A DNA stretch of 58,139 bases from Rhodobacter sp. NTK016B (GTDB lineage Bacteria > Pseudomonadota > Alphaproteobacteria > Rhodobacterales > Rhodobacteraceae): contig NZ_JAFKOK010000021.1 of assembly GCF_017303295.1 (NCBI RefSeq), positions 1 through 58,139 of the forward strand, in the 5' to 3' direction. Shown piece by piece: positions 17,072 to 34,510 of the stretch. Positions within the stretch are counted from its first letter, which is position 1. The number at the start of each line of letters is the position of its first letter. The notes below the pieces were generated by a model. It ran no database searches. It was not told where the DNA came from and saw only the letters and a list, made by a program, of their open reading frames with translations. The translations under genes were made by a program, and so were the position numbers.

Positions 17072-18148
17072 ATGTGGATGCTGTTGGGATTGCTGGGCGT
17101 CGCGGTTGCCGCGGGCGTGACCGACATGATGGTGCGTCCAGCGGACTTGGACGAAACCGATCCCGATGCCGATGCTGGCCCCGATGATGCCGCGACGGCA
17201 CCGGAAGGGCAGGGCGATCTGCTGCTCTCAGCGCTGGAGGATGACGTCGGCGATTTTCCCATGGACGATCCGTTCACGGATGAGACCGGCGGCGCCCCGG
17301 CCGGTCCCGATGCGGCTGGCGGGCAGGCGGATCCCGGCACCTCGGAAGGATTCTCCGGTCCTGGCGCCGAAGGGGAATTCATCAGTTCCGACGACCCGCC
17401 GATCCCCCCCGCCGGCGCCTATCTCCCGCTCGGCGACGAGGGTGAAACCGTCACCGGGGGCGACGGGCAGGACACGATCCTTGGCGGCGCGGGCGACGAC
17501 TGGCTGGACGGGTTGGGCGATGATGACACGCTCGACGGCGGCGCGGGGGCCGATACGCTTCTGGGCGGCGGCGGTGACGACACGCTGACCGGCGATGACG
17601 GTGCGGATGATCTGCGCGGCGAGGGGGGCGACGATATCCTCGACGGCGGATCGGGCGCGGATTCTCTGACCGGTGGCGAAGGCGCGGATACCCTCAATGG
17701 CGGCGAGGGCGACGACACGCTGGAAGGCGGCGCGGGCAATGATGCGCTCGACGGCGGCGAGGGCGGCGACCTGTTGATGGGCGGTTCCGGCGACGACGAT
17801 CTCGACGGCGGCTACGATCACGGCGAGCGGGACTATCTGAATGGCGGCGATGGCGACGATACTCTGCATCTGGGCGGCAATGACTGGGCCAGCGGCGGCG
17901 CAGGTCACGACACCTTCGCGCTGGACCACTGGCTGGACGGCGCCAACCCGGCGGTGATCACCGATTTCGAACCGGGCACCGACCAGATCGCGATCGCCTG
18001 GGACGGGCAGGGCGACCCGCCTGCGGTAACCACCCGCTATGACGCGGTGGACGGCCTCTTGCGCGTGTTCGTCAATGGTGAAGCCGTGGCGTTGCTACAT
18101 GGGATCGAGACACTGGGCGCAGACGATATCGTGCTCACGCAGCGATAG
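17072..18148 (+). CDS. RTX-type calcium-binding protein with N-terminal hydrophobic segment
   Basis: A 358-aa acidic protein. Residues 2-20 form one hydrophobic helix. Residues 30-125 are a low-complexity Asp/Glu/Gly/Pro linker. About 13 RTX nonapeptides of GGxGxDxLx type occupy roughly residues 128-250. A C-terminal beta segment (from about 285) contains [11 protein letters not shown], as at the end of other RTX proteins. RTX repeats bind Ca2+ and fold outside the cell; export is usually by type I secretion. A type I ABC/HlyD pair sits at 31.5-34.5 kb but is not adjacent. The N-terminal helix is unusual for a type I substrate and suggests membrane attachment. Confidence 0.85.
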
Positions 18149-18571
18149 GTGCCACCGATCCAAACGCCAGCAGACACCGAATGGTGGTCAGAGACAATCA
18201 CGTCTCGGGCGAGCGGCAGAGGAGGACCCGTTGCGGTCCTGTCAGCGCTTAGCAGCCTTAAGCCTTTGCTTTGAGACCGCGCGCAGCGAAACGGTGTCAC
18301 AGCATGGGCATCATGGGCAGACAGGCGATTGGCAAACCCGGCGCGTTGACATAGTATGCCCTGGTTGTCGTGTATTTGTATTTGCTTACAAAACCCTCGC
18401 TCCACCGCTCGCCCTAGGTAAGTTTGTTTGTTCCTCGAATTGGGAACGGGAACATGACTGGCGGCGCGATGGAAAAGTTGGGCTGCGCAGACTTCAGCCG
18501 CGTTCCGATGATGCCAACGGATGGGCGGTGATGTCGGGTGCAGGCCACCGTTCACGGTCAATGGCTCTCAG
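18149..18571. other. Intergenic region at the left edge of the P450 locus
   Basis: This 423-bp stretch has no convincing gene. AT content rises here relative to the flanks. A TTGACA hexamer at 18346-18351 could be a -35 element for the downstream hydrolase, though no good -10 at 17 bp follows. A short inverted repeat GTTCC-N8-GGAAC is at 18430-18447. No copy of the tRNA-Arg 3' end was found that would mark an attachment site. Confidence 0.5.
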
Positions 18572-19558
18572 ATGAACCCGCTCGATAGAAAAATACGATT
18601 GCTGCGGAACTTCGTGCGCAACTGGGATGGCGAGGTTGTCGATACCGACGAGGGACTGATTCGCCTTCTGAACAAAGACGGCACACGGCCTCCTCTTATC
18701 TGGTGCTTCAACGCTGAACACGAACCCGCCGCCCTGGCGCGGGCCTTGGGGCCGGATCAGCCGCTGATCGCCTTACGTTCCCTCAACATCGTTTCGGACC
18801 ACAACAAGAAGGCGATCGCAGAAGATACGGAAGTCGCACAGCATTATGTAAGGGGGCTGTTGAGCCACTTTGATCTGTCCACCTGCTGGGTTGGTGGAAA
18901 CTGCCAAGGTGCCACAATCGCGGTGGACATCGCCAGATTGCTGTTGTCCGAGGGAAAGAACGTCCGCGCCTATTTCTGCCTTGAGTGGACGCCCTTCATG
19001 CCCCTGCCAACGCGCTGTGTGCTTTTGTTTGGCGAAACAAGCGAACACTACAACCCGTTCCTGCGCGGAGAAAATCCCTGGCCGCAATGGCGCTGCATGT
19101 ACGAGAGCATTCGCTGCAAGATCATCCCGGGCGGTCACGGGACGTATTTTCGAGAGAATTCCGTCGGAAATCTCGCGGCAGTCCTAATCGAAGAAATGTC
19201 GTCAGAAGAAAGACTGCCTGTCCCGAGTCTGGAAACGGGACCGGTCTGGTCTATGGGCCCGGGTGAAACTATCCTTGCAAATCAGACGATAGCGGTCCAG
19301 CTGACCTGTCCCGATAACTTGAGTGCAGACACCAAAATCTATGCGTTGTGGCTCCCCCTGACACCGGGCGGTATCCAGAAAACCGTCGTGCATGATCTGC
19401 GCAAGGCGCAACGAACCTGTTCGGTTTCCCTGACTGCCCCGGAAGAGCCGGGAAACTGGACACTACAGCTGTTTCTGTGCCGGCCGGATGACGGGCCGCT
19501 GAGCTGGCAAAGTGATCTGTCGCAGGTGCGGAGGGCTGAGATTGTCGCTGAACGCTGA
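18572..19558 (+). CDS. Thioesterase-like alpha/beta hydrolase with Cys nucleophile
   Basis: A 328-aa protein. Residues 38-240 resemble NRPS/PKS-type thioesterases: LARALGPDQPLIAL near the start, then a nucleophile elbow WVGGNCQGATIAVDIARLL in which Cys111 occupies the usual Ser position. GGHGTYF with His189 supplies the catalytic His, and the acid is probably within LLFGETSEHY. The last ~100 residues form an extra beta-rich domain. It precedes the P450-ACP-carbamoyltransferase operon by 237 bp on the same strand, so it probably releases or edits the ACP-bound product. GC is visibly lower than in flanking genes. An in-frame ATG at 18521 is an alternative start. Confidence 0.75.
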   Translation: MNPLDRKIRLLRNFVRNWDGEVVDTDEGLIRLLNKDGTRPPLIWCFNAEHEPAALARALGPDQPLIALRSLNIVSDHNKKAIAEDTEVAQHYVRGLLSHFDLSTCWVGGNCQGATIAVDIARLLLSEGKNVRAYFCLEWTPFMPLPTRCVLLFGETSEHYNPFLRGENPWPQWRCMYESIRCKIIPGGHGTYFRENSVGNLAAVLIEEMSSEERLPVPSLETGPVWSMGPGETILANQTIAVQLTCPDNLSADTKIYALWLPLTPGGIQKTVVHDLRKAQRTCSVSLTAPEEPGNWTLQLFLCRPDDGPLSWQSDLSQVRRAEIVAER

Positions 19559-19795
19559 CGATATAAGGGCAGATGGCCCGGCGGGCAGATCAACTCAGGA
19601 CAGGCCCTCGGGCCGCCAGATGGGCGAGCATCTTCGTGCGACCAAGCACACGGTTGGCGGGGCACGGGGGTGATCTGCCTGCGGTTGAACTCGCGCACCG
19701 TTGCGCGCTACAACCGCCCGTAAGCTGGAGAATCCGGCAGTGTGTCATTACCGCGCCTTATCGCTTGCTACCCCCCAAATGAGAGCGGATTTCTG

Positions 19796-21994
19796 ATGGC
19801 ACTCGCTGATTTTCAGGCCCTGGATGACCGGGAAAAGTTCCTGACCGACCCGTCCGTCGCAACCAGTCTGCTGCGCAATGCCGACGACTTTGTCATCGCG
19901 GCAATGGGCGATTATCTGGATATCCTGCAGACGCGGACGGGCGAGGATTTCGGCGCGCTGCGGCGACTGGTCGAAAACTCGCTGATGTTTCAAGATCAGC
20001 AGCCCCATCTGGTGATGCGCCGCCTGTTCGCGCCCTTCTTTGCCAACAAAGCGATTGACCAATGGCAGGGCTGCGTTGATGAGGCCGTGGCGATCGGGCT
20101 TGAACATCTGGCGCAGGCCAGCGACCCCGATCTGATCGGCGACTTCGTCCGCCCCGCGCTGATGTCTTTCATGACCCGTTTCATCGGCTGTGCCCCCGAT
20201 GCGACGGACCAATTGTATGACAGCATGCGCCGGGTAAACAGCGTGGTTTCCCATCCGCTGCTATCTCTGTCGGAGCTGCGCAGGATCAATGCCGCCTGCG
20301 AGTATATTCTTGAGAAGGTTGAACAAGACGAGCCGGCGGGCGATCAGCATCCGCCGTCTTTCAAACGCTTCCTGAAGGAAAATTCCGGCCCCGGCAGCAG
20401 TATCGAGATTCAGCACGCGCAGGCGGCCTTCGTTCTGGTCAGCGGGATTACCATGGCGCAATCGCTCGGGCTTGCGCTTTACGGTTTGCTGCGCCGCCCC
20501 AAGGAGACCTGGCAACAGGTCGCGCAGCCGGGATGGGTCGATGACAATCTCGACCAGTTGTTCTCGAGCTATCCGTCGGCGCTGACCATGGTGCGGGTGC
20601 CGACCCGCGACACCGAGATAGGCGGTTGCCCGTTTCACAAGGGCGTCCCCGCCGTCGTGGATGTCGCCAGTTGCAACAACGCGCTGCGCGACAGCCGGGG
20701 GGAACATGCCCGACTGGGTCTCTTGTCATTTGGCGCAGGGGCGCACAAATGCCCGGGTGAAGCCCTGTCGCGCATGGTCTTCAAATCGGCCCTGACGGCA
20801 CTTGCGCGGCGGTTCCCGAACCTGTGCCTGCATGTTGACCGCGCACAGTTTCAGGTGTCGCCGATGATGCACGCGCTGCTGGCCCTGCCCTGTGAACGCG
20901 ACGGCCAATCGGTTCAGGTCACGGCCCGCTTGGTGGATATCAAATCGCTGGAGGCCGCGCGTAATGTGGTCAATCGCGATGCCGATTTCATGCCCCCGGC
21001 GATGGAAACGCATTTGAAGGCGCTGGGCGAACGCGTCGATCTTGACCTCGATCCGGCGATCACCATCGCGCGCAACGCGATGTTCTTCATGTCGGGCGAG
21101 CGCCACGCAGTGTTGCGCCGCGTCGTCGCCGGGCATCTGGGGAACAACCGGCTGGACAGATGGCAACCCCGGATCGAGACGGCGATCGACGCCGGGTTGG
21201 CGCAGCTGGCGCAGGCGCAGGTACCCGACCTGATCCGCGATTTTGCCGATCCGGTCTTTCATGGATCGACGCAGGACATGCTGGGCATAGCGCCCCGTGA
21301 CAGCGCCCGCTTCAACGAACTCGCGCCCGTGTTGCAGGATGTGCTGGAACCCTGGCTGCCGCTTCGGGAATTGCGCAGGCTTCAGGGCGTGTTCACCGAA
21401 TTGCTGGACACGATGGAGATCCCCGAAGGGGCGGCGAACCCGTCTCTCCTGCAGGTCATGGCCGAGCAGGAAATGCCGGATTTCACGCTGCGCGACAAGA
21501 AAGCGCTGGTTCTGGTCCTGTATGGCGCCAGCTTCAATCTGGCCCATACGCTGGGCAACATGGCGCATTGGGTTCTGACCCAGTCCAGTGACGGCAGCGG
21601 CGATCCCGCCGATCCGGTCTGGATCGATCAGAATTTCGAACAGCTTATGTCGATTTGCGCCTCGCCCAAATACATCTACCGGATGGCGCGAAACGCGGGC
21701 ACGGTGGATGGCGTGCCCGTGGCCAAGAACGATACGCTGCGTCTGCAATTGCTGTCGATCAACCGCGGCACGGCGGTCGGGAATCTCGCCTTCGGGCATG
21801 GATTGCATCGCTGTGTGGGGGCCGCATTGTCGCGGCGCGTGCTGAAATCCGCGCTGCCGCGATTGTTCCAGCGGTTCCCCGACATCACCCTTCTGCCTCA
21901 ACAGCAGCGTTACTTTGCCATGTCACAGACAGTGGCCATGTCCGCGCTACCCTGTCGTATTTCTCGCACAGCTCAGAACCAGGAAAACACATGA
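19796..21994 (+). CDS. Tandem double cytochrome P450 lacking ExxR and acid-alcohol motifs
   Basis: A 732-aa protein built of two P450-fold halves (about 1-365 and 375-732). Each has a C-helix motif (PHLVMRRLFAPFF, RHAVLRRVVAGHL) and a full heme-thiolate loop: FGAGAHKCPG with Cys319 and FGHGLHRCVG with Cys673. The I-helix in both lacks the [AG]Gx[DE]T pair (SGITMA, YGASFN), and the K-helix ExxR reads QLFS and QLMS. This argues against normal O2/NAD(P)H monooxygenation and for peroxide use, a non-oxidative role or a scaffold. It overlaps the ACP start by ATGA, so the substrate is probably ACP-bound. GTG at 19742 is an alternative start. Confidence 0.85.
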   Translation: MALADFQALDDREKFLTDPSVATSLLRNADDFVIAAMGDYLDILQTRTGEDFGALRRLVENSLMFQDQQPHLVMRRLFAPFFANKAIDQWQGCVDEAVAIGLEHLAQASDPDLIGDFVRPALMSFMTRFIGCAPDATDQLYDSMRRVNSVVSHPLLSLSELRRINAACEYILEKVEQDEPAGDQHPPSFKRFLKENSGPGSSIEIQHAQAAFVLVSGITMAQSLGLALYGLLRRPKETWQQVAQPGWVDDNLDQLFSSYPSALTMVRVPTRDTEIGGCPFHKGVPAVVDVASCNNALRDSRGEHARLGLLSFGAGAHKCPGEALSRMVFKSALTALARRFPNLCLHVDRAQFQVSPMMHALLALPCERDGQSVQVTARLVDIKSLEAARNVVNRDADFMPPAMETHLKALGERVDLDLDPAITIARNAMFFMSGERHAVLRRVVAGHLGNNRLDRWQPRIETAIDAGLAQLAQAQVPDLIRDFADPVFHGSTQDMLGIAPRDSARFNELAPVLQDVLEPWLPLRELRRLQGVFTELLDTMEIPEGAANPSLLQVMAEQEMPDFTLRDKKALVLVLYGASFNLAHTLGNMAHWVLTQSSDGSGDPADPVWIDQNFEQLMSICASPKYIYRMARNAGTVDGVPVAKNDTLRLQLLSINRGTAVGNLAFGHGLHRCVGAALSRRVLKSALPRLFQRFPDITLLPQQQRYFAMSQTVAMSALPCRISRTAQNQENT

Positions 21995-22248
21995 CGACCA
22001 AAACGACCCTGTCCGACATTCAGGATTTTCTTCAGGCACGGATCGCCAAATTCACCGGCACCGAGGCCTCGCAGCTCGGCGCCGACTCGGTTCTGCTGGA
22101 CCTCGGTCTGCAATCCATCGACGCCGTCATCCTGTCCGGCGAAGTCGAGGACGAGTTTCAAACCGAAATCAACCCGTCCATGATTTTTGAACATGAAACG
22201 CTGGGGAGCTTTTCGCAGGCTGTTCTGGACGGTCTTTCCACGAAATGA
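21991..22248 (+). CDS. Free-standing acyl carrier protein
   Basis: An 85-aa acidic helical protein. The phosphopantetheine site is Ser42 in LDLGLQSIDAV, the usual DSL-like loop with Gln in place of Asp. Residues 58-72 (EINPSMIFEHETLGSF) match helix III/IV of peptidyl or acyl carrier proteins of secondary metabolism rather than primary FabACP. Translation is coupled on both sides: its ATG overlaps the P450 stop and its stop overlaps the carbamoyltransferase start. No adenylation, ketosynthase or acyltransferase gene is in the window, so loading must come from elsewhere. Confidence 0.9.
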   Translation: MTTKTTLSDIQDFLQARIAKFTGTEASQLGADSVLLDLGLQSIDAVILSGEVEDEFQTEINPSMIFEHETLGSFSQAVLDGLSTK

Positions 22249-23933
22249 CCACATGGTATCTGGGATTGTCGACCTCGGGGCATGATCCGGCGCTGGCGCT
22301 GGTCAATGCCGAGGGGCAGGTTGTTTTTGCCGAGGCGACGGAGCGCTTCCTGCAGGACAAACGCGCCTGGGGGTTGGCCCCGGACCATGTGTCCCATCTG
22401 TCGGCAGCCCTGAACCAGTGCGGTTTCGACTCGGCCGCAGACAGGCTTGTCGTTGCCAGCAGCTGGACCTTCATCAAGGGCGATCTGCCGGTGCAGGTGT
22501 CCAACACGCTTCTTCCGGCGACCGACGGTCTGTGGCTGCGCAGCCTGCAAGCCACGGCGCAATCCAATGCCGGGGCTACCCTGTTGCGGCTGGGCCTGAG
22601 CGCCGAAATGCCCGAGGTGATGCGGTTCGATCACCACCTGTGCCACGCGGCCGCGGCGGCCTATCAGTCGCCGTTTTCCGATGCCCTCTGCGTGGTGATG
22701 GATGGCGAGGGCGAGGCCGGATCGGTATCCGTCTTCGACATGAAGGCCCGCGTGCTCAAGCGCCGGTGGCGATCCTGGGGGCCGGGCAGTCTGGGTACGT
22801 TCTATGCCTGGATCACCGGCGCATGCGGGTTCGACTGGCGGCTGGGGGAAGAATGGAAGGTGATGGGGCTGGCGGCTTTTGGTCAGCCCATCCCCGAACT
22901 GGTCGACAGCCTGTCCAGCCTGCTGCTCGTGGATCGGGGGCGGTTACAGTTCGGCGACGAGACCCGCCTTGCCGAGGTTCAGGCCAAGGTGGCCCGCCAC
23001 GCACGCACGCCCTCGGATCCGATCATGCAAGCAGCCGATCTTGCGGCATCGGGTCAGGCCGCGTTTGCGCGGGTGGCGGATCAGGTTCTGGCCGCGTGCG
23101 CCGCTGAAACACCGGGCGCGGCGAACCTGATCCTGACAGGGGGCTGCGCGCTCAATTCGTCCTATAATGGCACGATCGCAGAGCGGCACGGGTTTGACAG
23201 CGTGTTTGTCCCTTCGGCCCCTGCGGATGACGGCAACGCGGTCGGCGCGGCGCTTCTGGCCCGGGCCAAGGATCAGGGTCACGACGCCCTGCCGATGGGG
23301 ACCGGATCGGCCTATCTGGGCACAAGGGCGCCCGACACGTCCCTTGCCAAGGCCCGACACGGGGCCGGGCCGCTGATTGCCACCGACCTGACCGGCCAAT
23401 CGGCGCCGAGCATTGCCGGGCGGTTGGCTCAGGGTAAGATCCTGGGGGTCTTCCGGGGGCAGGCCGAATTCGGGCCGAGGGCGCTGGGCAACCGATCGAT
23501 CCTCGCCGATCCGCGCCCCGCCAATATGAAGGACCGTCTCAACCGCGACATCAAGGGACGCGAGGCCTATCGTCCTTTTGCGCCGATCATTCAGAACGCC
23601 AACGCGGACGAATGGTTCGAAAACGCCCAGCCGTCGCCCTACATGTCCTTTACCAAACGCTGGCGCCCGTCTCGCCGCGATCAGGTTCCTGCGGTTGTGC
23701 ATGAGGATGGCACCGGCCGGCTGCAAACGGTCAGCGCCGACAGCAACCCGTGGCTCGACGATCTGGTCGACACCTTTGGCCGCCTCACAGGCGTGCCGGT
23801 GGTTCTGAACACCAGTTTCAACATCATGGGCAAGCCGATCGTGCATTCCGTTGAAGACGCGATTGCGGTGCTGATGACCTCGGGGATGGATGGTATCGTG
23901 CTTGAAGACACTCTTTTCGAGAAAGAGACCTGA
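22245..23933 (+). CDS. NodU/CmcH/TobZ-type O-carbamoyltransferase
   Basis: A 562-aa enzyme transferring a carbamoyl group from carbamoyl phosphate, via carbamoyl-AMP, to a hydroxyl. The N-terminal Kae1-like domain starts YLGLSTSGHDPALAL and carries the metal/nucleotide HHLCHA (His130, His134); GGCALNSSYNG and a later DDGNAVGAAL complete it. The C-terminal YrdC-like part has GEFGPRALGNRSIL-type residues (EFGPRALGNRSILADPR), then EAYRPFAPII and VVLNTSFNIMGKPI. Relatives decorate antibiotics and Nod factors. As last gene of the coupled operon it probably carbamoylates the finished product or an ACP-bound hydroxyacyl. Confidence 0.92.
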   Translation: MTTWYLGLSTSGHDPALALVNAEGQVVFAEATERFLQDKRAWGLAPDHVSHLSAALNQCGFDSAADRLVVASSWTFIKGDLPVQVSNTLLPATDGLWLRSLQATAQSNAGATLLRLGLSAEMPEVMRFDHHLCHAAAAAYQSPFSDALCVVMDGEGEAGSVSVFDMKARVLKRRWRSWGPGSLGTFYAWITGACGFDWRLGEEWKVMGLAAFGQPIPELVDSLSSLLLVDRGRLQFGDETRLAEVQAKVARHARTPSDPIMQAADLAASGQAAFARVADQVLAACAAETPGAANLILTGGCALNSSYNGTIAERHGFDSVFVPSAPADDGNAVGAALLARAKDQGHDALPMGTGSAYLGTRAPDTSLAKARHGAGPLIATDLTGQSAPSIAGRLAQGKILGVFRGQAEFGPRALGNRSILADPRPANMKDRLNRDIKGREAYRPFAPIIQNANADEWFENAQPSPYMSFTKRWRPSRRDQVPAVVHEDGTGRLQTVSADSNPWLDDLVDTFGRLTGVPVVLNTSFNIMGKPIVHSVEDAIAVLMTSGMDGIVLEDTLFEKET

Positions 23934-24309: not shown

Positions 24310-24559
24310 GCCACGTTCTCTATTGCGGCTTGAGGCGGGCAAGGCAAGGGGGCGGGCGGAAAATGGCGGTGTCGCCGGGTTGGCGGGGCACGCAGTGGCC
24401 CTGTGCGGGCGGATCCGCAGCGGAGCGCGGCGATTGTGTGCGCTATCAGCCGTGCATTCAAGGCTTTGACACCGTCGTTCCGGGCGTTCTACAAGAATTG
24501 TATGTATGTTGGCGATAGGGGGATGCTGGCGACGGTATCCCGACAGGGGATCAGAACTC

Positions 24560-25594
24560 ATGGCAATTCCACGTTCCAGCGACAACCGCCGTCCCCTGAC
24601 ACTGCGCGATGTGTCCGAAGCCTGCGGTGTGTCCGAAATGACGGTGAGCCGCGTTTTGCGCAATCGCGAGGATGTCTCGCCCGCCACGCGCGAGAAGGTC
24701 ATCGCCGCCGCGCGCTCGCTGGGATACGTGCCCAACAAGATCGCCGGGGGGCTGGCCTCGCAGCAGGTGAACCTTGTCGCGGTGATCGTGCCGTCGCTGT
24801 CGAACATGGTGTTTCCCGATGTGTTGAGCGGTGTGTCCAAGGCGCTGGAAGATAGCGGTCTGCAGCCGGTCTTCGGGGTGACGAATTACTCACCCGAGAA
24901 AGAGGAAGAGGTGCTCTACGAGATGCTGTCGTGGCGACCCTCGGGGGTGATCATCGCCGGGCTCGAGCATACCGAGGCTGCGCGCGCGATGCTCGAGAAT
25001 GCGGGCATTCCGATCGTCGAGATCATGGATTCCGATGGCGAGCCTATCGACAGCGTGGTGGGTATCTCGCATCGCAATGCCGGGCGGCAGATGGCCGAGG
25101 CGATCGTCGCCGCCGGCTATCGCAAGATCGGTTTCCTTGGCACCAAGATGGCCGACGACCACCGCGCGCGCAAACGGTTCGACGGTCTGACCGAGGGGTT
25201 GGCCGAGCACGGGATCGAGATCGCGGATACCGAATTCTATTCGGGCGGGTCCGCGCTGAAGAAGGGGCGCGAGCTGACCGAGACGATCCTGACGCGCTCG
25301 CCGGATCTGGATTTCCTGTATTATTCGAACGACATGATCGGCGCGGGCGGACTGCTTTACTGTCTTGATAAGGGCTATGACATTCCCGGCAAGCTGGGTC
25401 TTGCGGGCTTCAACGGCACCGATTTTCTGGACGGGCTGCCGATGCAGCTGGCCACGATCGACGCCTGCCGGCATGAGATCGGCGAACGGGCGGCCTCGAT
25501 CATTGCGGGTAAGGGGTTCGAGGATGGCGTGATCGGCGGTCACCGCATCGAACTGACGCCGCGGCTTGAAGCGGGGGATACGATCCGCCGCTGA
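24560..25594 (+). CDS. LacI/GalR-family transcriptional regulator
   Basis: A 344-aa repressor-type protein. The N-terminal LacI helix-turn-helix is at about residues 15-60 (TLRDVSEACGVSEMTVSRVLRNRE), with hinge helix IAGGLASQQ. A periplasmic-binding-protein-like effector domain fills the rest (VAVIVPSLSNMVFPDVLSG; GFLGTKMADD; GLAGFNGTDF). The layout resembles gluconate-type GntR regulators. GGGGA lies 9-13 nt before the ATG. No sugar transporter or catabolic gene is adjacent, so the regulon is not visible. It ends in a strong terminator at 25618. Confidence 0.92.
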   Translation: MAIPRSSDNRRPLTLRDVSEACGVSEMTVSRVLRNREDVSPATREKVIAAARSLGYVPNKIAGGLASQQVNLVAVIVPSLSNMVFPDVLSGVSKALEDSGLQPVFGVTNYSPEKEEEVLYEMLSWRPSGVIIAGLEHTEAARAMLENAGIPIVEIMDSDGEPIDSVVGISHRNAGRQMAEAIVAAGYRKIGFLGTKMADDHRARKRFDGLTEGLAEHGIEIADTEFYSGGSALKKGRELTETILTRSPDLDFLYYSNDMIGAGGLLYCLDKGYDIPGKLGLAGFNGTDFLDGLPMQLATIDACRHEIGERAASIIAGKGFEDGVIGGHRIELTPRLEAGDTIRR

Positions 25595-31512: not shown

Positions 31513-33219
31513 ATGATGCCGAACAGTATCACGGCAGGCAACTGGACGTCGAAAACGCGCGCCTTGTGGGGCGCGGCGCTGGGTTTTGGGGCGGTTTCGA
31601 ACCTTCTTGTCCTGACCGGGCCTATTTTCATGCTGCAGGTCTATGACCGGGTCCTGACCGGACGCTCGGCGGCGACGCTGCTGGTGCTGTTCACGCTGGT
31701 CGCCTTCCTGTTCGCGATGATGGCCGGGATCGATACGGCCCGCTCGCAATTGCTGGCCCGGGTCGGTGCGCGCATCCGTCACGAACTGGAAGAACGGGTC
31801 TTCGAAGCCAGCCTGCGTGCCCGGCTGCGCGATCCGCCCGATCCGCGCGCGGCGGTGGCGATGCAGGATCTCGACACGATCCAGCGGGTGCTGGGCTCGT
31901 CGCTGGCGCTGGCGCTGCTCGATCTGCCCTGGACGCTGCTGTTCCTGCTGCTTTTGTACTTCGTTCACCCTTTGCTGGGATGGCTGGCACTGGGCGGCGG
32001 CTTGGCGCTGGCGCTGATGGCGGTGTCGGGGCATCTGCAGCAACGCAAGCTTCTGGGCAATGCGCGGATGCAATCGAATGCCGCCGACCGGCTGCAGATC
32101 GCGATCGAGGCGCAGGGCGGCGACCGCGTTGCCGCGCTGACGCCCGAAGTGCTGGCGCGCTGGCGCGATTACCGGCGCGATTCGCTCTCGGCGCTGTTGC
32201 GCACCGCCGACCGCTCGGTGCGCTCGACCGCTCTGGCCCGCACGTTCCGGCTGTTCCTGCAATCGGCGACGCTGGCGCTGGGCGCGTGGCTGGTGCTGGA
32301 CGATCAGTTGTCGGCGGGCCTGATGGTGGGCTCGTCGATCCTGCTGGGCCGCGCGTTGGCACCGGTCGAACAGCTTGCCGCGCATTGGGGCTCGCTGCAC
32401 GTCGCGTTCAGCGGCTGGCGGCGGCTCGATTCCTTTCTGCGCGCCACGGGCCGCGCGGTCGAGCCGGTCGACGCCCCGGTCAGCGGGATGCTCTCGGTGC
32501 GCGGGCTGATTGTCGTACCGCAGGGCCGCCGCGAAGCGGTGCTGCGGATCAACGGCTTCTCGGTCCCGCCGGGCACGGCTTTGGGCGTGATCGGGCCAGG
32601 CGGATCGGGCAAGAGCCTGTTCGCGCGCGTGCTGGCCGGCGCGGTGCCGCCCTCGGCCGGGGTCATGCGGCTGGGCGAGGTATCGCTGGCGCGGGTGCCG
32701 ATCACCCGCATCGGCTACCTGCCCCAGCGCTTCGATCTGCTTCCCGGTACGGTCGGCGAAGCGATCTCGCGCCACGATCCCGATGCCACGCAAGACGAGA
32801 TCGAGGCCGCCGCCCGACTCGCCGGCGTGCATGGCGCGATCGTCAACCTGCCCGACGGCTACAACACATCGACTGAACCCGATGTCGCGCATATGTCAGG
32901 GGGCATGATGCAGCGCATCGGGCTGGCCCGCGCGTTCTACAAAGACCCGGTGCTGGTGGTTCTGGACGAACCCGCCGCCAATCTCGACGCTGACGGGCTG
33001 AGCGCCTTCAACGCCGCCGTGCGTGCGCTGAAAGATCGCGGGGCGGTGGTGGTGGTGACGGCTCTGCGCCCGACTTCGGTCTCGGAATGCGACGATCTTC
33101 TGGTGCTCGACAGCGGCATCCAGACCGGCTTCGGCCCGCGCGACATCATCCTGCGCGAGATGGTGCGCAATCACATGGCGGTCGTCGGGCAGGGCGGGGG
33201 GCCGCGGCGCCATGACTGA
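31513..33219 (+). CDS. Type I secretion ABC transporter (PrtD-like permease/ATPase)
   Basis: A 568-aa half-transporter. Membrane domain at residues 20-310 with VLTGPIFMLQVYDRVL, a hallmark of PrtD/HlyB-type exporters without the C39 domain. ATPase domain has Walker A GPGGSGKS (361-368), signature MSGGM (461-465, where most have LSGGQ) and Walker B VLVVLDEP. It exports RTX-type proteins in one step together with the adjacent HlyD adaptor (8-nt overlap) and an unlinked TolC. No substrate gene is adjacent; the RTX protein at 17.1 kb is one candidate. Confidence 0.9.
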   Translation: MMPNSITAGNWTSKTRALWGAALGFGAVSNLLVLTGPIFMLQVYDRVLTGRSAATLLVLFTLVAFLFAMMAGIDTARSQLLARVGARIRHELEERVFEASLRARLRDPPDPRAAVAMQDLDTIQRVLGSSLALALLDLPWTLLFLLLLYFVHPLLGWLALGGGLALALMAVSGHLQQRKLLGNARMQSNAADRLQIAIEAQGGDRVAALTPEVLARWRDYRRDSLSALLRTADRSVRSTALARTFRLFLQSATLALGAWLVLDDQLSAGLMVGSSILLGRALAPVEQLAAHWGSLHVAFSGWRRLDSFLRATGRAVEPVDAPVSGMLSVRGLIVVPQGRREAVLRINGFSVPPGTALGVIGPGGSGKSLFARVLAGAVPPSAGVMRLGEVSLARVPITRIGYLPQRFDLLPGTVGEAISRHDPDATQDEIEAAARLAGVHGAIVNLPDGYNTSTEPDVAHMSGGMMQRIGLARAFYKDPVLVVLDEPAANLDADGLSAFNAAVRALKDRGAVVVVTALRPTSVSECDDLLVLDSGIQTGFGPRDIILREMVRNHMAVVGQGGGPRRHD

Positions 33220-34510
33220 CCGACAGGACGTCGCCGAAATGGATCCGCGCGGCCCCTTCGTTCTGGGCCTGACGTCATGCGCGGTGCTTGTGCTGGGGCT
33301 GGCGGGATGGGCGGCGAAGGCCGCGATCACCTCGGCGGTGGTGGCGATCGGCACGGTCGCGGTCGCGCCCTACAGCCACCCGGTGCAGCATGTTCAGGGG
33401 GGCGTGATCGAGGCGGTCTACGTGCAAGAAGGGCAGGAGGTCGGGGCGGGCGATCTTCTGGTTCGGCTCGACGGGTCCGACTTGCGCGCGGCGCTCGACC
33501 CGGTCGAACAGCAGATCGTCGAGGCTGAGGCGCGGCTCGTTCGCCTTCGGGCCGAGCGCGACGGGCTGGATTTCCCCACCGTCACGCTCGATGAGATGCG
33601 CGACCGCGCCCGCATCGCCGCGCTGGGCGCGCAGCTTCGGCTCTATGATGCGCGCCGCGACACGTTCGAGCGCCAGCAATCGCAGCTGCACGAAAGGCGG
33701 CGGCAGGCCGAGGCGCAGCTTCAGGGCCTTATCGATCAGCGCACCGAACTCGCCGCCGAGACCGAGATCCTGCAGACCGAGCTGCGCAACCAAGAGACCC
33801 TACGCGCGCAGGGGCTGGCCGTGGCGTCGCAGGTCACCATGCTGGCCCGCGCCCGTGCCCAGCTGGCGCGCGACCGCGTGGCGCTTAACGCGCTCGAGCA
33901 GGAATTGCGCGGGCAGGTGGCCGAGATCGCCATGCAATCGGCCGCGATGATCGCTGCCAGACGCGAAAGCGCCGAACAGGATTACGCCGATACCGGGCTT
34001 GCGCTGATCGACCTCCATGCCCGCCGCGCGACGCTGCTGGCGCGGCTCGACGCGAACGATCTGCGCGCACCGACCGCAGGCGTGGTCCACCGGCTGGCGC
34101 AACTCGGCCCGCACAGCGTGCTGCGCCCGGCTGAGGAGGTGATGCAGATCGTCACCCCGCCAAGCGATCCGGTCCTGACGGTGCGCGTGCGACCCGACGA
34201 TGTGGACTATATCGGGCTAGGGCAACTGGCCTATCTGCGGTTCCCCGGACTGGCAGGACGCGACCTGCCCGATCTGACAGGGCTGGTGACCAACGTCTCG
34301 GCTGCCAGCTTCGTCGACGAGGCGACGGGCGCCCAGTATTTCCGCGCCGATATCCAGCCTTCGCCGCAGACGCTGGCCGTTCTGGGCCGCGACGCGCTCA
34401 TTCCGGGGATGAGCGTGCAGGCCTTCCTCGCCACCGGCGAACGTACGCCGCTCGCCTATCTGGTCGATCCGCTGCGCGACCATTTCGTGCGCGCCCTGCG
34501 AGAGCCGTGA
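33212..34510 (+). CDS. HlyD-family type I secretion periplasmic adaptor
   Basis: A 432-aa membrane fusion protein. A single N-terminal helix lies at about residues 13-45, followed by HPVQHVQGGVIEAVYVQEGQEV, the biotinyl-lipoyl half-motif. A long coiled-coil hairpin covers about 85-275, then DLRAPTAGVVHRLAQ returns the lipoyl domain, with a beta-barrel and the C-terminal GMSVQAFLATGERTPLAYLVDPL typical of HlyD/PrtE. It bridges the ABC exporter and an outer-membrane TolC. The gene overlaps the ABC gene by 8 nt. A dispersed repeat follows it. Confidence 0.92.
   Translation: MTDRQDVAEMDPRGPFVLGLTSCAVLVLGLAGWAAKAAITSAVVAIGTVAVAPYSHPVQHVQGGVIEAVYVQEGQEVGAGDLLVRLDGSDLRAALDPVEQQIVEAEARLVRLRAERDGLDFPTVTLDEMRDRARIAALGAQLRLYDARRDTFERQQSQLHERRRQAEAQLQGLIDQRTELAAETEILQTELRNQETLRAQGLAVASQVTMLARARAQLARDRVALNALEQELRGQVAEIAMQSAAMIAARRESAEQDYADTGLALIDLHARRATLLARLDANDLRAPTAGVVHRLAQLGPHSVLRPAEEVMQIVTPPSDPVLTVRVRPDDVDYIGLGQLAYLRFPGLAGRDLPDLTGLVTNVSAASFVDEATGAQYFRADIQPSPQTLAVLGRDALIPGMSVQAFLATGERTPLAYLVDPLRDHFVRALREP

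Follow-up and report, generated by a model that had tools for sequence, protein, structure and literature searches.

The window analysed here is a stretch of 58,139 nucleotides from the draft genome of Rhodobacter sp. NTK016B (Rhodobacteraceae; contig NZ_JAFKOK010000021.1). At 18572 to 23933 it carries a compact group of genes around a protein made of two fused cytochrome P450-like halves. Four genes of this group are intact and open, those for a thioesterase-like hydrolase, the double P450-like protein (double P450), a free acyl carrier protein (ACP) and an O-carbamoyltransferase. A fifth gene, for a fatty acyl-AMP ligase (FAAL), has left a decayed remnant. This group of genes is a copy of a rare, patchily distributed cassette of roseobacter-type bacteria, and its features are listed below.

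18572-19558, + strand: thioesterase-like alpha/beta hydrolase, with GGNCQG as its nucleophile-elbow motif, Cys replacing the usual Ser, and a His in PGGHGTYF (motifs read by eye)
19597-19794, + strand: decayed 3' remnant of a deleted FAAL gene, placed by alignment to the end of the Phaeobacter sp. G2 FAAL gene
19796-20935, + strand: P450-like N half of the double P450, with predicted heme ligand Cys319 (codon 20750-20752) and QxxS at the ExxR place
20936-21994, + strand: P450-like C half, with predicted heme ligand Cys673 (codon 21812-21814), I-helix segment YGASFNL and QxxS at the ExxR place
21991-22248, + strand: free ACP, with motif LGLQSIDA and Ser42 (codon 22114-22116)
22245-23933, + strand: O-carbamoyltransferase of the NodU/TobZ/GdmN kind, with both Pfam domains

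The four genes and the two ATGA overlaps between them had been described in a first-pass annotation of this DNA, and the open reading frames (ORFs) agree with it in content and coordinates. Judged from ORF ends, the P450 and ACP genes overlap at 21991-21994 and the ACP and carbamoyltransferase genes at 22245-22248. Domain matches allow the ACP (PF00550, PP-binding domain, 52.7 bits) and the carbamoyltransferase (PF16861, Carbam_trans_N, 107.6 bits; PF02543, Carbam_trans_C, 221.7 bits) to be assigned with full confidence. The same holds for the P450 assignment of both halves of the double P450 (Pfam P450 38.6 bits in two stretches, cut-off 22.8; phmmer matches span both halves). The thioesterase label is weak. 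The protein departs from type I thioesterases in its sub-threshold PF00975 match and in the Cys of its GGNCQG motif, found in the window and in the homologues from Phaeobacter sp. G2 and a Pseudophaeobacter metagenome contig; this Cys, where Ser is usual, had not been pointed out before. Four plasmid records at 29-33% identity to it are annotated as nonribosomal peptide synthetase (NRPS), adenylation or AMP-binding. Its start at 18572 uses the same Met that begins the Pseudophaeobacter homologue. The double P450 ORF opens at GTG 19742, but the G2 and Pseudophaeobacter homologues begin with MALADF, so that the start is most likely the corresponding ATG at 19796; the segment 19742-19795, 5' of that ATG, is former FAAL sequence.

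Further loci were gathered by searches with the double P450 as query. The core of double P450, ACP and carbamoyltransferase was found in the same order and on one strand at all eight loci, the window included. Such conservation of gene order had been proposed as the test of whether this is a system, and the recurrence of the three-gene core at seven other loci rules out a chance assembly. FAAL lies directly 5' of the double P450 at 7/8 loci, the window being the sole exception. The other loci are L009, a second, complete cassette on contig C4 (6129-16293) of the window's own genome; L011, the Pseudophaeobacter contig; L012, on plasmid CP104105 of Phaeobacter sp. G2; L013, on plasmid pSC52_1 of Rhodobacteraceae SC52; and L020, L021 and L022, in genomes G381, G228 and G008 of the window's family. 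L011 and L012 are nearly identical (98.2% in the P450), and the eight loci therefore amount to seven distinct ones. In L012 the double P450 is 83.9% identical to the window's in its tblastn piece and 84.6% over the aligned proteins. Existing annotations give the order AMP-binding, hypothetical, ACP, carbamoyl transferase in G2 and fatty acyl-AMP ligase, P450, ACP, carbamoyl transferase in SC52. L009 encodes a B12 radical SAM protein, FAAL, double P450, ACP, carbamoyltransferase and a tetratricopeptide repeat (TPR) protein with a VexE-like C-terminus.

The cassette is rare. Matches to the double P450 were found in 2 of 60 relatives at E 1e-60 (own genome and G008), in 3 of 394 genomes of the family at E 1e-50 (own, G381 and G228) and in 1 of 385 of the class at E 1e-30 (own only). 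A profile built from the eight double P450 rows matched 1 of 398 genomes of the phylum at E 1e-50, again the window's own. The carbamoyltransferase gave matches in 2 of 18 genomes of the genus at E 1e-100 and 3 of 292 of the order at E 1e-120. Among plasmids, 272 records match the double P450 and ten of these cover at least 80% of its length. Only G2 and SC52 do so in a single piece; the other eight match in two pieces at no more than 28.1% identity. Because the best cassette matches are Phaeobacter and Pseudophaeobacter records, we infer that the window's genome is roseobacter-type. A B12-binding radical SAM protein precedes FAAL in L009, L013, L020 and L022; none was seen beside the window cassette, and it is thus not counted as core. 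A hopanoid-type role suggested by this neighbour was rejected, the matches to HpnJ, HpnR, BchE and PhpK models all being far sub-threshold. No paper on the cassette was found in searches of one open-access library, outside which subscription papers and preprints largely lie, and one of these searches listed no paper naming a bacterial P450-P450 fusion.

The first-pass annotation had reported that the window holds no adenylation domain, and this was borne out by tblastn of the FAALs of G2 and contig C4 against the whole window, which gave nothing better than E 0.62. The domain is missing because the FAAL gene was deleted. The alignment of the window with G2 DNA runs to the end of the thioesterase-like gene and resumes only at 19597, where it meets the final 201 bases of the FAAL gene of G2, ahead of the P450 start; the G2 arrangement has about 1.7 kb that the window lacks. 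With the end of the G2 gene the remnant shares 143 of 192 aligned bases (74%, with 10 gap blocks), and the neighbouring P450-ACP-carbamoyltransferase stretch is about 83% identical. The remnant is also frame-shifted. No frame reaches the FAAL end, and one is open for 71 codons (19567-19779), its second half FAAL-like by eye and followed by a FAAL-like tail in another frame. The alignment indicates that the ancestral cassette had FAAL between the thioesterase-like gene and the P450 gene. The earlier description of a biosynthetic locus therefore stands, with its gene set now seen to be incomplete.

The nature of the lost ligase bears on what the ACP carries. Of the models that match the G2 FAAL, fatty-acid--AMP ligase scores highest (297.6 bits), with 222.6 bits for PRK07768, a model named CoA ligase, and 119.7 for PRK06187, the general long-chain CoA ligase; all of these matches are under cut-off. 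The best PDB matches of the G2 FAAL include a chain named polyketide synthase (7r7e, 7r7f, 7r7g), saframycin Mx1 synthetase B and FadD23/32. Since the ancestral ligase is FAAL-like, an aminoacyl cargo is disfavoured and the ACP most likely carries a fatty acyl group. The first-pass annotation had proposed chemistry on a carrier-bound acyl or aminoacyl group followed by carbamoylation; the general scheme remains likely, with the order of genes conserved elsewhere, and its aminoacyl option is dropped. Loading in trans, the other option raised there, now has a concrete candidate in the FAAL of the C4 cassette. This is the closest FAAL in the window's genome (49% identical to that of G2), three other matches being at 28-30%. 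As the remaining genes look maintained, trans loading of the window copy is plausible, perhaps by the C4 enzyme.

The N and C halves of the eight double P450s (16 halves, of which 14 are independent) were aligned with three canonical P450s from the window's genome as controls. These were selected by a strand and heme-motif filter from six P450 loci, all of which were also checked separately. In a tree with these three outgroup rows and two long end branches, the 16 halves group apart from the canonical P450s and fall into an N-half and a C-half group. The heme-thiolate loop FxxGxxxCxG keeps its F, G, H, C and G columns in every half, and the C-helix His and Arg are likewise kept in 16/16. The K-helix ExxR is found in none of the halves and in all three aligned controls, and an E..R pair lies 71-72 residues before the Cys in 7/7 P450-like open stretches of the six own-genome loci. 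An Arg stands one residue off the ExxR position in the C halves of L009, L013 and L022. The I-helix core acid (Asp or Glu) is also missing from all 16 halves and present in 3/3 controls, two of which carry an unusual NEP motif in this helix. At the I-helix alcohol position, N halves have Ser or Thr and C halves Asn in one register, which is unsure by 1-2 residues. MAFFT and phmmer place the helix differently, which makes placement of the catalytic Thr unsafe and the absence of the acid alone firm. The I-helix segment GASFN is invariant in the eight C halves. The halves have 54-67 residues between the K-helix Arg position and the Cys (versus 68-69), and the N halves have 64-70 ahead of the C-helix His (versus 90-93), the C-half value depending on the chosen cut. 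The loss of ExxR and the I-helix acid from both halves had not been noted previously. Taken together, these motifs suggest a heme-thiolate protein with non-standard chemistry.

One of three modules adjoins the core at each locus. The thioesterase-like module with a Cys nucleophile motif is found in the window, L011 and L012. In L009, L022 and L021 its place is taken by a TPR protein with a VexE match in its C-terminal part (E 6.4e-10, 5.2e-10 and 3.8e-15, respectively), with one His and one Asp kept in all three. The L021 protein matches the C-terminal part of the L009 protein by BLASTP (E 6e-22), and over the repeats of the latter a TPR-repeat model scores slightly above VexE. When the L009 C-terminal domain was isolated, Pfam and PDB sequence searches were empty and NCBIfam VexE was the sole match, far sub-threshold at E 1.5e-9. 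An acyltransferase reading of the TPR proteins is drawn from this match and the conserved His and Asp. VexE of the Vi antigen is described as an acyl-ACP-dependent hydroxyacyltransferase that needs its His and Asp (PMC9597891). The likeness to that system lies in the C-terminal domain, at scores that are far sub-threshold. No VexE-like gene was found beside the window copy when ORFs at 10001-34000 were compared.

The third module, in L013 and L020, is a DltB-like MBOAT protein followed by a 302-aa partner that has no Pfam or NCBIfam match. DltB is the sole NCBIfam match of these proteins (E 3e-32 and 8e-33, sub-threshold), and the Pfam MBOAT score is above cut-off in L020 only. Downstream of the SC52 cassette (L013, 19161-24561), about 5 kb of DNA holds two different DltB-like MBOAT genes, each with a smaller gene behind it. 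DltB is stated to take D-Ala from the carrier DltC (PMC11035591). The cassette resembles the Dlt system (DltA-DltC-DltB-DltD) in that a ligase loads a carrier and, in L013 and L020, a DltB-like MBOAT with a small partner lies just downstream. It differs in having FAAL in place of DltA and two extra tailoring enzymes, and no MBOAT (PF03062) was found in the window's whole genome. The exchange of modules around a fixed core suggests a scheme in which the core would prepare an ACP-bound acyl donor and the neighbouring module would decide its destination.

The carrier Ser of the ACP is present at all eight loci. The best NCBIfam match of the ACP is Pks13, at model residues 2-78, the N-terminal part. 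This N-terminal ACP of Pks13 is the partner of FadD32. Two genes of the phosphopantetheinyl transferase (ACPS) family are present in the window's genome. The carbamoyltransferase resembles the NodU/TobZ/GdmN enzymes in both Pfam domains and in its PDB matches (novobiocin carbamoyltransferase, GdmN and TobZ) and is unlike them in sharing an operon with a free ACP. Its nearest plasmid relatives outside the group, at about 45-46% identity, lie in Nostoc PKS/NRPS (PKS, polyketide synthase), Eleftheria PKS and Planktothrix P450 and Rieske clusters, which fits a secondary-metabolism O-carbamoyltransferase.

On balance, the cassette probably modifies and carbamoylates an acyl group while a free carrier protein holds it, and then passes the group to an acceptor. 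FAAL would adenylate a fatty acid and load it onto holo-ACP. In the window copy, whose FAAL gene is deleted, loading would have to be in trans, with the FAAL of the C4 cassette as the simplest candidate. The double P450 would then act on the acyl-ACP and supply or expose a hydroxyl, which the carbamoyltransferase would carbamoylate. Finally, the locus-specific module would remove the acyl group from the ACP. This would be the thioesterase-like protein with its Cys nucleophile in the window, L011 and L012, and elsewhere the VexE-like TPR or DltB-like MBOAT protein may pass the group to a sugar or envelope acceptor.

The sequence itself shows which genes are present and in what order, the scar of the deletion, the conservation, the lost motifs and the swapped modules. 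Several points weigh against the scheme. Its chemistry, from the substrate and the order of steps to heme binding and the product, is proposed from those features. The loss of ExxR and the I-helix acid speaks against an ordinary O2-using hydroxylase, and neither a ferredoxin nor a reductase was noticed within the cassette; in L021 a flavoprotein gene lies beyond the TPR gene. A predicted structure of the double P450, made from two rows, has a pLDDT (predicted local distance difference test) of 30.7. The thioesterase-like protein scores 15.5 bits for PF00975, under the Pfam cut-off of 26.4, and the VexE and DltB matches are far under their NCBIfam cut-offs. The C4 ACP is only 47% identical to the window ACP and the C4 FAAL only 49% to the G2 FAAL, which leaves cross-loading unproven.

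Could the cassette be an ordinary secondary-metabolite tailoring set? Here the P450 would hydroxylate a medium-chain acyl-ACP with O2 despite the missing motifs, and the thioesterase-like protein would free a carbamoyloxy fatty acid. Tailoring cassettes of FAAL and ACP are known, and in JamA-JamB-JamC a free-standing FAAL and ACP stand around a desaturase that alters the carrier-bound acyl chain. The present cassette has a double P450 and a carbamoyltransferase in place of the desaturase, and the annotations of the DNA retrieved around the cassettes of G2 and SC52 include no polyketide synthase. Five of the eight loci have a VexE-like or MBOAT gene and no thioesterase-like gene in the stretch fetched, which counts against this reading. 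P450s without ExxR do exist, the example being CYP157 (PMC3599690, the reference list of which holds a title stating that ExxR loss leaves a single cysteine absolute). The CYP157 motifs quoted there come from single P450s and retain the Glu, whereas in the present protein ExxR and the I-helix acid are gone from each of two fused halves. This explanation is possible and we hold it doubtful.

Alternatively, the double P450 may be a pseudo-enzyme that serves the ACP and the carbamoyltransferase as a docking or activating scaffold, with the hydroxyl already on the fatty acid selected by FAAL (e.g., a 3-hydroxy acid). P450-derived glycosyltransferase activators would be the precedent, and their model, TIGR04515, is the best NCBIfam match of the protein, although its 66.6 bits fall well short of the cut-off of 343. 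The motifs lost from every half and the shortened stretch from K-helix to Cys would suit a scaffold; the Cys loop and C-helix His and Arg, kept in all 16 halves, are as expected if heme is bound. A scaffold is accordingly judged rather unlikely.

The deletion of FAAL and the decay of its remnant also raise the question of whether the window copy is a dying relic, functionless since that loss. All four remaining genes are open. Pairwise ratios of nonsynonymous to synonymous substitution (dN/dS) against G2 are 0.26 for the thioesterase-like gene, 0.14 for the P450, 0.16 for the ACP and 0.11 for the carbamoyltransferase, figures that include time preceding the deletion, a caveat that also applies to the scheme proposed above. 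Changes on the window branch were compared with those on the branch of FAAL-keeping L012 (G2) for the P450, ACP and carbamoyltransferase, at positions alike in at least four of five outgroups. The window:G2 counts were 9:8, 0:4 and 2:4, with no significant excess on the window branch. With single outgroups, P450 counts ranged from 14:15 to 20:14, the window leading in four of five (chi-square at most 1.06), and the sole count above 3.84 was for the ACP with L009 (1:8, G2 faster). The remaining genes thus look maintained, by figures that do not date the deletion, and a FAAL acting in trans may be available in the genome. A relic is unlikely. That the FAAL gap is an error of the draft assembly, which is in 86 contigs, is highly improbable, given a remnant more diverged than its neighbours and carrying frame-shifting indels, as for an old deletion and not a misjoin.

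Other features lie around the cassette. The 2-kb blocks across 18001-22000 have the two lowest G+C contents of 29 (58.6% and 62.1%, the rest 62.6%-70.1%), which is compatible with acquisition from outside. Just upstream, an RTX-repeat protein is encoded at 17072-18148, and a type I secretion ATPase with an HlyD-like adaptor lies about 13 kb beyond that gene, at 31513-34510; together these may form a secretion set with no relation to the cassette. Downstream on the same strand, at 24506-25594, there is a LacI-type regulator resembling gluconate repressor GntR models.

To return to the proposed acyl-donor route, the cassette offers a compact, testable system, with two heme-Cys loops that persist without the other usual motifs and are conserved across loci about 40-50% identical. 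A fixed core beside a changing acyl-removal module points to a general acyl-donor maker, and the window copy shows what follows the loss of a loader while a paralogous cassette stays in the genome. More tentatively, the fused P450 could represent a new kind of heme-thiolate enzyme, perhaps peroxide-using or rearranging instead of O2-activating, that prepares carbamoylated acyl groups on a carrier, with sugars, envelope polymers or small molecules as the acceptors to which exchangeable VexE-like, DltB-like or Cys-thioesterase-like modules attach them. If this is true, the cassette would constitute an unrecognised way of acylating the envelope or glycolipids in roseobacter-type bacteria.

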